From contig JAJDDQ010000067.1 in the NCBI GenBank assembly GCA_029260215.1, positions 1 to 64,000 on the forward strand: 64,000 nucleotides of DNA. The letters are read 5' to 3'. Shown here piece after piece: positions 5,654 to 62,147 of the stretch. The stretch comes from Phycisphaerae bacterium (GTDB lineage: Bacteria; Planctomycetota; Phycisphaerae; UBA1845). The notes under the pieces are model-generated. The model was not told the origin of the DNA. It did not search any database and saw only the letters and a list, made by a program, of their open reading frames with translations. Within the stretch, counting starts at the first letter, position 1, and every line of letters starts with the position of its first letter. The translations under genes and the position numbers were made by a program.

Positions 5654-5910
5654 CAAGAAAACTCCTGCCCGCATTCGCACCCGAAACGGAACATGACCTC
5701 AGATTCCGCAGCCGACAACCCCGGCTCACGCGCCACGATCATGGCCAGCCGCCCAAGCATTTAGGCGTCCGCCAAGGTTCCTGTCAACGCGGAATTCACA
5801 CAAACTACTTAGAACAATATGGTTACGAGAAAATCAGCACCCCGCAACCCGTCGTTCCCAATTCTCGCGGGAACGACCTCCAATGCACTGTCACAACTCA
5901 ATTGACGGGT

Positions 5911-5993
5911 GGGTGCCCCACGGCTTTAGCCGTGGGGAAGTCGAATCCGGAGAACTATTCGCCTCCCCCACCTCTGAAGAGGTGGGGGACCCA
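5911..5993 (+). repeat. family C hairpin pair in inverted orientation, copy C1
   Basis: Two hairpins head to head. The first is CCCCACGGC-TTTA-GCCGTGGGG (9 bp) followed by AAGTCGAAT. The second, on the other strand, has arms CCCCCACCTC and GAGGTGGGGG around TTCA. The pair resembles a BIME made of two REPs. The preceding TGTCACAACTCAATTGAC (about 5890-5907) is found again near 62065, so the repeat unit is longer than the hairpins. The rest of the gap 5654-6089 holds no gene. Confidence 0.85.
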
Positions 5994-6089
5994 TCCGTTG
6001 TTTTGGGCCTGACAAAGCACCAGTCTATCTTACGTCTCCGTTTCCACCGATTTCTGACACGGAAAACGGAAAAAATAAAAATTTCGTGA

Positions 6090-12566: not shown

Positions 12567-12620
12567 ACGTTCGTATTGGAAGAAGTTCATTTTCCAGAAC
12601 GGTTTCAATCCAAACGCAGC

Positions 12621-12665
12621 GAGCCGCGAACTTCAGTTCGCGCGGATTCGAGTTCGCGCGGATTT
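12621..12665 (+). repeat. family A hairpin copy A2 plus a partial second copy
   Basis: A full copy occupies 12621-12646 (arms GCGAACT/AGTTCGC). It is followed at 12650-12665 by the right half alone, GAGTTCGCGCGGATTT. The half copy suggests slippage or imperfect tandem duplication. Confidence 0.8.
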
Positions 12666-34208: not shown

Positions 34209-34236
34209 AAACACCGCCCCACCGCCCAAACACAAC

Positions 34237-34262
34237 GAGCCGCGAACTTCAGTTCGCGCGGA
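34237..34262 (+). repeat. family A hairpin copy A6
   Basis: Arms GCGAACT/AGTTCGC, identical in core to A1 and A2. It lies 28 bases after the gcvH stop. Confidence 0.85.
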
Positions 34263-34282
34263 TGTAAATTCGCACGACGGCT

Positions 34283-34318
34283 GGGTGCCCCACCTTTTCA
34301 GAAGTGGGAAAGTCAATC
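34283..34318 (+). repeat. family C hairpin copy C2
   Basis: GGGTG, then CCCCACCTT and its partner AGAAGTGGG, followed by AAAGTCAAT. The stem is imperfect and the tail resembles the AAGTCGAAT tail of other C copies. It follows A6 by 20 bases. Confidence 0.75.
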
Positions 34319-40271: not shown

Positions 40272-40320
40272 CTACCGGCATTCCAGGACGATTTCGTTCA
40301 TGGTGCAGCCAGCCACATAA

Positions 40321-40453
40321 GTGTGGCACCAGCTTGCAACCGATGCAAAAAACGTGTGGCACCAGTATGTAACCGGTGCAAGCAAAACACGTGTGGCACC
40401 GGTTTGTAACCGGTGTGAGCAAAACACGTGTGGCACCGGTTTGCAACCGGTGC
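40321..40453 (+). repeat. family B hairpin array, four copies
   Basis: Four copies of a 26-base unit starting GTGTGGCACC at 40321, 40354, 40391 and 40428. The spacing is 33, 37 and 37 bases; the last two are linked by near-identical 11-base spacers (AAGCAAAACAC type). Each unit forms a hairpin GCACCGGTT-TGC/TGT-AACCGGTGC, progressively more perfect toward the right. It lies between the divergent dxr and rhomboid genes. The rest of the gap, 40454-40801, shows nothing clear. Confidence 0.9.
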
Positions 40454-40801
40454 AAGAACGCCACTCCCGGCGACATCACCCTCCTGACCAGTGAAAACGG
40501 GTTGAAACCCCTGCCACCCTCTATCAATAGGCTAACAGGCGTGTGTCCGATTCATGGAAGCCCGGCATGTTAGCCATCCCAGGCGGATCGGACAACCGTT
40601 TCTGCCGATCAACACGATAGGCGATTTGCTGGGCCACCACACCGATCCTATAATCGACCGGTGAGCTAGATTGAACCCATGAAACAGCCAACAAAAACCA
40701 CCACCGTGGCAGAAACCATGCCCGCAACCGGAATCGGCAGCCCGCAACCGCGACCCGTCGCCGCGCAGGCCCAAAAACCCCTGAAAGGGGAAATATAGAT
40801 C

Positions 40802-42936: not shown

Positions 42937-42972
42937 GGGTGCCCCATCGCTTTAGCGGTGGGGTAGTCGAAT
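42937..42972 (+). repeat. family C hairpin copy C3, upstream of the REP transposase
   Basis: GGGTG, then CCCCATCGC-TTTA-GCGGTGGGG (one T-G pair), then TAGTCGAAT. It ends 15 bases before the transposase start codon and has the same orientation as the copy downstream of the gene. Confidence 0.9.
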
Positions 42973-42987
42973 CGCTATACTAACCCA

Positions 42988-43569
42988 ATGCCCTCCCGTC
43001 TAAAACGTTACGATGAACCAGGCCACATCCACTTCTGGACCATCTCTTGTCATCGCCAACTCGACTTCTTTCATCACGACGACATAAAGCAAATAGTCAT
43101 CGACGCACTGGCCCAACTCAAGACCAAATTCGGAATCTGCCTGATCGGCTACGTGATCATGCCCGATCACGTCCACGTCCTCATGTACCCGCACGCCAAA
43201 GGCTCCGACACGCCAATCGACATTTCGATCCTCTTGCGCGCATTCAAGCAACACGTCGGCTACCACGGCAAATCCTGCCTGCGCGAATACTGGCGAACCC
43301 ACAACCAACTATGGTCACCGTCATTAACAAACTGGGCGACCAACAATGAGCACGGAAAACCCGTCTGGAAAACGCGAGGTTTCGATTTCAACATCCACAA
43401 GTTTTCCATGTTGATTGAAAAGCTGAACTATTGCCACAAGAACCCAATCACCCGAGGCTTGGTAAAGCGTGCAGAAAATTGGCCGTGGAGCAGCTTTCGC
43501 TATTACGAATTCGGCGACCGCTCGATACTGCCAATGGACTGGGATCGAGCTTGGCCAATCATGTGGTAA
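42988..43569 (+). CDS. REP-associated tyrosine transposase (RAYT, Y1 family)
   Basis: 193 residues. A single-strand nuclease of the IS200/IS605 Y1 type without flanking insertion sequence ends. The metal-binding HUH motif is H61-V-H63 in MPDHVHVLM, and the likely catalytic tyrosine is Y148 in KLNYCHKNPITRGLV, followed by the family-typical WPWSSFRYYE. These enzymes cut and join REP hairpins and are thought to spread them. Family C hairpins flank the gene on both sides in the same orientation (42937-42972 and 43584-43618), the standard RAYT context. All catalytic residues are intact, so it may be active. The ATG at 42988 is preceded by AACCCA, a poor ribosome binding site. Confidence 0.92.
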   Translation: MPSRLKRYDEPGHIHFWTISCHRQLDFFHHDDIKQIVIDALAQLKTKFGICLIGYVIMPDHVHVLMYPHAKGSDTPIDISILLRAFKQHVGYHGKSCLREYWRTHNQLWSPSLTNWATNNEHGKPVWKTRGFDFNIHKFSMLIEKLNYCHKNPITRGLVKRAENWPWSSFRYYEFGDRSILPMDWDRAWPIMW

Positions 43570-43583
43570 TCTGGCGGATGCAC

Positions 43584-43618
43584 GGGTGCCCCATCGCTTC
43601 AGCGGTGGGAAAGTCAAA
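43584..43618 (+). repeat. family C hairpin copy C4, downstream of the REP transposase
   Basis: GGGTG, then CCCCATCGC-TTCA-GCGGTGGGA, then AAGTCAAAA. It begins 14 bases after the transposase stop codon. Compared with C3 the loop is TTCA instead of TTTA. Confidence 0.9.
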
Positions 43619-45561: not shown

Positions 45562-45595
45562 CCCAAATCCCCTCAATCCGTCCCCCCAACCCAAC

Positions 45596-45662
45596 GAGCC
45601 GCGGACTTCAGTCCGCGCGGACGCAATTCACTCTCTCAAACCCGCGCCCGTAAAGGAAGCGG
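45596..45662 (+). repeat. composite repeat: family A (A7) followed by family D (D4)
   Basis: A7 is 45596-45621 with arms GCGGACT/AGTCCGC. After ACGCAATTCACTCTCT comes D4 (45636-45662), a core ending GTAAAGGAAGCGG. The same order and linker recur at 46783-46848, so A and D can move or be copied as one unit of about 70 bases. Confidence 0.8.
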
Positions 45663-46765: not shown

Positions 46766-46782
46766 ACACCCAACACCCCAAC

Positions 46783-46848
46783 GAGCCGCGGACTTCAGTC
46801 CGCGCGGACGCAACCCACTCTTCCAAACCCACAACTGCAAGGGAGCGG
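46783..46848 (+). repeat. composite repeat: family A (A8) followed by family D (D5), inside the cassette
   Basis: A8 is 46783-46808 (arms GCGGACT/AGTCCGC). The linker ACGCAACCCACTCTTCC is like that of A7-D4. D5 is degenerate (CAACTGCAAGGGAGCGG). It separates two genes of one apparent operon, so a transcript would carry the hairpin. Confidence 0.8.
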
Positions 46849-60564: not shown

Positions 60565-60591
60565 GTGTCTACCTTAACAGGCCGCTGAATT

Positions 60592-60737
60592 CACCGGTTG
60601 CAAACCAGTGCCACACAGACTCTATCGAAATCACCGGTTAAGAACCGGTGCCACACTAACACTATCCGAATTCACCGGTTAAGAACCGGTGCCACACTAA
60701 CACTATCCGCATTCACCGGTTGGAAACCGGTGCCACA
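60592..60737 (+). repeat. family B hairpin array, four copies, inside the atp operon
   Basis: Four copies of CACCGGTT-x-AACCGGTGCCACAC at 60592, 60632, 60673 and 60713, a period of 40-41 bases. The 15-16-base spacers are nearly identical (AACACTATCCG type). The first copy has one arm change. The whole atpH-atpA gap consists of this array, so it must be part of the operon transcript unless an internal promoter exists. Confidence 0.93.
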
Positions 60738-60786
60738 CAGGAACCTTATGTCCTTCGACAGGCTGCTCAAACTATGATTCTCAGGC

Positions 60787-62008: not shown

Positions 62009-62087
62009 CGAGCCGGTCGGGGCGTATCAATCGCCCCGATCGACCGGGAATACCCTATCGCTTTGTCACAACTCAATTGACCGGTTT

Positions 62088-62147
62088 GGAGAAGTCGAAT
62101 CCGAAAGACTATTCGACTCCCCCACCTCTGAAGAGGTGGGGCACCCA
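62088..62147 (-). repeat. family C element C5 in the atpE-atpF gap
   Basis: GAAGTCGAATCC then an inverted hairpin with arms CCCCACCTC and GAGGTGGGG around TTCA (62118-62140). The preceding sequence TGTCACAACTCAATTGACCGG matches that before C1 (5890-5910), but the first hairpin of the C1 pair is missing. It looks like C1 with an internal deletion. Confidence 0.85.

Follow-up and report, generated by a model that had tools for sequence, protein, structure and literature searches.

The closest described systems pair a REP-associated tyrosine transposase (RAYT) with tagged hairpins, the REPs. In pairs of the Escherichia coli type, the tags stand at the outer ends. In known RAYT systems, the tag precedes the foot of the hairpin at its 5′ side (PMC6006769), and the REPs that flank a RAYT gene are said to be "always" inverted (PMC2817692). 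The E. coli enzyme TnpAREP (yafM; PDB 4er8; RAYT groups 2–3) cleaves at C|T, either 5′ or 3′ of a REP (PMC8266576), and E. coli REPs form Y/Z heterodimeric BIMEs (PMC8266576, PMC2817692). In S. maltophilia, cleavage is abolished when C replaces the base at tag position 4, which gives GTAC (PMC8266576). The REPINs of Pseudomonas fluorescens SBW25 are inverted REP doublets that fold as one long hairpin, typically with both REPs from one group (PMC3116915). In the double palindromes and TIRtrons of Pseudomonas, REPs are joined to unrelated palindromic sequence, in hundreds of copies (PMC3733652). REPs and tyrosine transposases of planctomycetes are already on record: Rhodopirellula baltica, and likewise Opitutus terrae, are PVC hosts with GTAG-tagged REPs, multiple tyrosine transposases and heterodimers, and the tag varies at positions 2–3 (PMC3733652). 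An initial annotation of the locus studied here had called a planctomycete system little described. This is too broad in view of R. baltica (PMC3733652). As for the clade of the present RAYT, neither it nor a GTGC-tagged REP turned up in searches of an open-licence literature library.

The window, that is, the whole analysed stretch of 64,000 nt, contains an intact RAYT gene between two hairpins, as the initial annotation had claimed, and related hairpins at a distance:

5880–6023, forward strand: complete long unit, in the order CCAA, left arm, Y hairpin (+), spacer, Z hairpin (−), right arm, CCAG
5911–5946, forward strand: Y hairpin (CACGGC TTTA GCCGTG) and tail, part of the long unit 5880–6023
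5953–5994, reverse strand: Z hairpin (CACCTC TTCA GAGGTG) and tail, part of the same unit
34283–34318, forward strand: single Z-like hairpin
42937–42972, forward strand: upstream REP; tag GTGC 42939–42942, stem 42942–42950/42955–42963, loop TTTA, tail TAGTCGAAT 42964–42972
42988–43569, forward strand: RAYT gene; 193 amino acids, HVH 61–63, Y148, K128 at the position of E. coli Q95
43584–43618, forward strand: downstream REP; tag GTGC 43586–43589, stem 43590–43597/43602–43609, loop TTCA, tail AAAGTCAAA
62107–62148, reverse strand: Z hairpin of a damaged unit, of which the left arm and the Y-side tail remain at about 62060–62102; the Y hairpin is gone

The window protein is a REP_Tyr_transpos member in NCBIfam (85.6 bits, cut-off 80) and barely passes the cut-off of Pfam Y1_Tnp (24.2 vs 23). 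The columns of H61 and Y148 are invariant among 20 aligned sequences, and that of H63 is nearly so. A PDB sequence search gave 4er8 as the sole clear match (E 3.4e-5; runner-up 0.089). The structure search with an AlphaFold2 model (pLDDT 88.9, from the 20-sequence alignment) also placed 4er8 on top (E 5.5e-10, TM 0.62/0.72), with the transposases of ISDra2 and IS608 ranking below. The HUH motif and the single catalytic tyrosine are located in a predicted Y1 fold, as in E. coli TnpAREP, W127 aligns with W94, and both systems have REPs on either side of the gene. The next residue differs. Opposite Q95 stands K128, and the W-Q motif of RAYT/TnpAREP is replaced by W-K here; lysine is found in 17 of 37 clade members. 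Further differences from the E. coli system are the tag, GTGC instead of GTAG, and the direct instead of inverted orientation of the REPs on either side of the gene. One copy of the clade is present in the source genome, unlike the multi-copy unit as which an IS200/IS605 gene moves. Four weaker RAYT-like matches occur besides, three with other flanks and one as a fragment.

At E ≤ 1e-40, the RAYT was found in 31 of 114 genomes of the order, with 42 matches in total. A class-wide sample, with up to eight candidates scored per genome, had it in 26 of 397 genomes, every one in the window's order. At this threshold, the RAYT clade is thus seen in a single order of Phycisphaerae, that of the window. 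The named relatives with more than 50% identity come from five planctomycete MAGs (55–65%; two are partial matches), and weaker relatives (≤36% identity) are spread over many phyla. Plasmid records yielded four remote matches below 26% identity; the phage records searched had no match. The tree of 37 full-length RAYTs, which omits five partial copies of the 42, has two well-supported clades, I with 17 and II with 20 rows. The closest neighbour of the window RAYT is G041a (99/94), followed by that of genome G055 (94/89). One genome has 18 matches in total, with four RAYT-like genes inside 5 kb, three of them equal in score (G053:C1:2614672-2619398).

The two flanking hairpins are 15 nt upstream and 14 nt downstream of the open reading frame, on the strand of the gene. 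Stable hairpins between genes are commonplace, and the pair could have been ordinary transcription terminators or RNA elements that adjoin the gene by chance. This is highly improbable and was rejected: the stem is not followed by a T run, a search of the window with Rfam at gathering score matched one tRNA alone, and the association with RAYT genes is tight. Within 200 nt, 72 of the 82 gene sides have a hairpin frame, as do 40 of the 42 RAYT loci; among 110 more distant control windows, four contain it. This loose pattern, GG[TA]G[GC][CT]CC...[TC]GGG, describes the frame; pairing was judged in a separate hairpin listing. A stricter pattern gave 57 of 82 sides, 35 of 42 loci and 3 of 110 controls. 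The loose pattern fails at G112a and G014, yet the listing has hairpins at both, on either side of G112a and 126 nt upstream and 216 nt downstream of G014. The family score, the fold match and the frame at nearly all loci bear out the RAYT/REP system proposed in the initial annotation.

The nearest listed hairpin is on the gene's strand upstream in 29 of 32 cases and inverted downstream in 23 of 30. Of 27 two-sided loci, 22 are arranged +−, one −+, three ++ and one −−. The direct pair of the window thus shares its orientation with two other loci and departs from the inverted flanks of known RAYTs. Its 5′ feet have GTGC in place of a GT[AG]G tag.

Within the window, a 25-nt frame pattern with up to three mismatches matched four times, compared with none in 100 dinucleotide shuffles. 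The covariance model R1 matched at 5909+, 5953−, 34281+, 42935+, 43582+ and 62107−; these six matches are no independent test, because all are among its 34 building sequences. Across the source genome, the independent pattern GGGTGCCCCAN{8,18}TGGGRAAGTC occurs 51 times and its reversal not once. The R1 genome scan, which scored 150 of the 2717 candidates from a first look, gave at least 148 matches; in 302,636 bases of genome stretches, R1 matched 152 times at E ≤ 0.01. The hairpin superfamily has about 150 copies in the source genome, so the hairpins elsewhere that the initial annotation had expected are there in number. Pairing is retained in 94.5% of the cells of the R1 hairpins; double changes count as few events, because they are mainly the difference between two stem types.

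The best 150 of the 152 R1 matches were classed. GTGC is the tag of 134 and GTGG of four; the loop is TTTA in 71 and TTCA in 70. Stems are of two main types, Y (mainly CGGC-TTTA-GCCG) and Z (mainly CCTC-TTCA-GAGG). The classed hairpins form 63 pairs and 24 singles. As in REPINs and BIMEs, 61 of the 63 pairs are inverted with outward tags, and the other two are direct Y-Y pairs. Fifty-eight of the 61 join one Y with one Z stem, like the heterodimeric BIMEs of E. coli (PMC8266576, PMC2817692); the remaining three contain an unclassed hairpin. Stems like those of the RAYT flanks (TCGC/GCGG) are rare, with four of the 150 classed hairpins. A whole-genome pattern search with up to one mismatch likewise found this stem four times here, compared with 152 times in G055 and 244 times in G022. 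This rarity is a point against the explanation preferred below. The "own REP type" of the initial annotation is therefore partly right: flanks and amplified copies have tag, loop and tail in common, and not the stem. By these three elements, the abundant Y/Z copies are linked in sequence to the RAYT flanks.

Most Y/Z pairs are embedded in a palindrome of about 145 bp bounded by CTAG. The typed consensus of this long unit folds as one hairpin (−54 kcal/mol, z −12.8). Inverted doublets that fold in this way resemble the REPINs of SBW25, which differ in their typical one-group doublets from the mixed stems and longer CTAG-ended arms found here (PMC3116915). The joining of REPs to unrelated palindromic sequence in many copies resembles Pseudomonas double palindromes and TIRtrons; unlike these, the units have CTAG-bounded arms and a weak 4-bp repeat signal and are not beside the RAYT. 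The arms are about 27 nt long with CTAG at their ends, and the sequence outside is unrelated between copies. Such sharp ends would suit a MITE. A DDE transposase, perhaps IS5-like given the CTAG/YTAR target, would work on the arms and leave a 4-bp duplication; the REPIN would be cargo and the RAYT a bystander for copy number. This is possible but doubtful as an account of the long unit. Terminal inverted arms, as in a MITE moved by a DDE transposase, were recognised at both ends in 41 of 61 units and at one end in 14, and six pairs have no score for either arm. Arm-like ends matched at least 151 times among the genome matches listed, compared with 51 for the reversed pattern; in 12 stretches among these matches, no inverted arm pair encloses a gene (draft genome), and no transposase with such ends came to light there. 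Hairpins are more similar to the consensus than arms and spacer in the 61 units (0.96 vs 0.77–0.78 and 0.70) and in the 41 two-armed units (0.97 vs 0.84–0.86 and 0.76). They exceed the arms in 61 of 61 units, which counts against the MITE, although hairpin conservation is partly ascertained because the model was built from hairpins.

The terminal 4-mers of the 37 units (of 61) with readable ends agree at 101 positions, mostly bases 1 and 4, compared with 85.4 in shuffles (p about 0.001). The association of a first-base G between unit ends (p 2.3e-4) was chosen after viewing the rows. Both results favour a duplication; others weaken it. Whole 4-mers are equal in six units, with 3.0 expected (p 0.07), p 0.007 is likewise reached in registers shifted by 3 and 4, and p 0.013 at the base immediately inside the 4-mer. 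A scan for duplications of 2–12 nt at many offsets had four combinations that beat all 200 shuffles, none at the CTAG edge. A 4-bp duplication at the long-unit ends is suggestive, no more. The signal nevertheless counts against spread by a RAYT only, because HUH insertion is not expected to leave such repeats. C|T is also contained in CTAG; the symmetric CTAG ends together with the direct-repeat signal fit a duplication better than C|T cutting. A MITE-type second mover is a live rival, because most pairs lie in a CTAG-bounded palindrome with a weak 4-bp signal.

Similar units occur in genomes where no RAYT matches at E ≤ 1e-40, for example G026 and G092, and in G096, where RAYT remnants are left; this also favours a second mover. 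Nineteen of 20 stretches from G096 have the Y hairpin. The window-type Y core is located there inside different arms, part of them CTAG-ended, and other copies join Y to a third stem type with a different right flank. These units add little to the duplication test, because the CTAG-armed copies mostly have CTAG at both ends. The hairpin pairs of G096 (L285–L304) have, as judged by eye, no fewer than three kinds of outer sequence around them.

Other repeats were observed beside this system. Two further RAYT-like genes of the source genome (235-aa open frame; L003, 1431–2201, and L004, 1209–1981) lie between inverted GAAACGGGGACGCAGCTAGT copies rather than hairpins of the present family, an arrangement that resembles the TIRtrons of PMC3733652. 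A third (L002, 1208–1984) lies between inverted copies of about AAAGGGGTCGGGAGTCGTTT, and a similar string adjoins a REPIN in L242. A second hairpin family in the window, CCGCGnACTTCAGTnCGCGCGG, has seven listed copies, one of them weak, including 1395–1445, 12610–12660, 34226–34276, 45585–45635 and 46772–46822. A third family, CACCGGTTnnnAACCGGTG with GCCACAC, forms clusters at 60586–60748 and 40312–40455.

Hairpin load follows the presence of the RAYT. With both tags summed, the median for the 31 genomes with a RAYT is 46 hairpins; at least 10 are present in 29 of these, and none has zero. Seven genomes with RAYT remnants, chosen by hand, have a median of 38. The 76 genomes without RAYT or remnant have a median of one; 33 have none, 20 have at least 10 and two exceed 100. 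In these pattern counts, nested matches are doubled in some genomes, for example G072. The load with and without RAYT differs over the order (p 1.6e-11) and in the window's own family (21 vs 24 genomes, p 2.4e-4); these tests, like the tag tests below, take no account of phylogeny, and most of the genomes are drafts. The initial annotation had named equal abundance in relatives lacking the transposase as the observation that would speak against it. On average this is not the case, although the 20 hairpin-rich genomes without RAYT go in that direction. G022 (84% complete) has 391 hairpins and G030 (96% complete) 132, both with no RAYT detected, which indicates that a genome can keep or multiply its hairpins when no RAYT is detectable. 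In G044, a genus-mate of G022, a contig end truncates the RAYT.

The single clade copy in the source genome would also suit a domesticated RAYT, an enzyme with a host role whose REPs are kept by host function after movement has ceased. This is unlikely. The genome has many identical or near-identical hairpin copies, and tags and tails are lineage-specific; together they point to turnover.

Tag and tail covary with the RAYT. The 3′ tail distance correlates with RAYT distance (Mantel r 0.50, p 2e-4) for 34 of 37 RAYTs, the upstream tail set omitting G112b, G023 and G013b, and also inside clade II (0.54, 19 RAYTs) and clade I (0.56, 15 RAYTs). At 32 loci, tails on the two sides of the same gene differ by a mean of 1.8 edits, compared with 4.5 between genes. 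At position 4 of the tag, clade I loci and the window have C, and most of clade II has G; GTAG-tagged REPs, with their variable positions 2–3, differ from the window in this position 4 (PMC3733652). Both tags occur at G055, G107 and G111, and the tag differs between sides at G097a, G095a and G112a. The tag of most hairpins in a genome is also that of its RAYT in 20 of 23 cases (GTGC 7/10, GTGG 13/13; p 1.4e-4), with G041, G011, G050 and G097 left out, whose RAYTs carry both tags. A wider assignment adds two disagreeing genomes, G055 and G095, and two agreeing ones, G107 and G111, and gives 22 of 27 (GTGC 8/12, GTGG 14/15; p 3.4e-4). The five mismatches are G029, G034, G023, G055 and G095. GACGGA (reverse CCGTC) is the reading of many tails in clade I. 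It merely resembles CGTC-tagged REPs, for which no dedicated transposase is known (PMC3733652).

K128 is the rule in clade I (16 of 17 proteins); among the 20 of clade II, the window protein alone has it. This distribution over both clades is a lead to perhaps two origins. Judged by eye, all 17 K-bearing RAYTs have flanks with GTGC only; among the 20 others, just G007 does. The initial annotation had proposed AAGTCGAAT as the recognition tetranucleotide region. It was set aside as a tag: it covaries with the RAYT, yet a RAYT tag would be expected on the opposite side of the hairpin, and the tag on the side used by known RAYTs is GTGC (PMC6006769). The likely recognition tag, from this analysis, thus precedes the hairpin on its 5′ side and reads GTGC in the window and GTGG for most sister RAYTs; AAGTCGAAT is a co-varying 3′ tail that may matter.

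A REPtron of the Phycisphaerae RAYT clade is the best explanation, with a probability of roughly two in three. The HUH enzyme, with Y148, would bind folded single-stranded REPs. It would recognise them by four elements: a 5′ tag, which is GTGC in the window and mostly GTGG in the sister clade; the stem foot CCCA/TGGG; the loop TTYA; and the 3′ tail GTCGAAT. The hairpin anatomy fits a RAYT that reads these four and leaves the mid-stem free. The RAYT would nick near REPs and rejoin the strands, and so copy REP pairs (REPINs) in trans. The abundant form would be a heterotypic Y/Z REPIN within the palindromic unit, and another transposase may account for part of the spread of that unit. It is the association of genes and hairpins that suggests movement of REPINs by the cognate RAYT. 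RAYT-driven copying is the best-supported engine of this REPtron, and a DDE transposase may have a share in the number of CTAG-bounded units. A more specific combination is speculative and distinctly unlikely: the tag would have been re-coded at position 4 (G to C or back) on at least two branches, with K at the Q95 position accompanied by all-GTGC flanks and REPINs following, and two movers would act, an HUH enzyme on single strands and a DDE enzyme on the ends of a CTAG-targeting palindromic element.

A natural C-tag clade with a residue change at the tag-contacting position and with G-tag sisters is a ready-made test of tag reading. The CTAG-bounded units offer a chance to ask whether ordinary transposons carry REPINs. 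With a framed hairpin near 40 of 42 RAYT loci, the order makes RAYT–REP co-evolution testable outside Proteobacteria.
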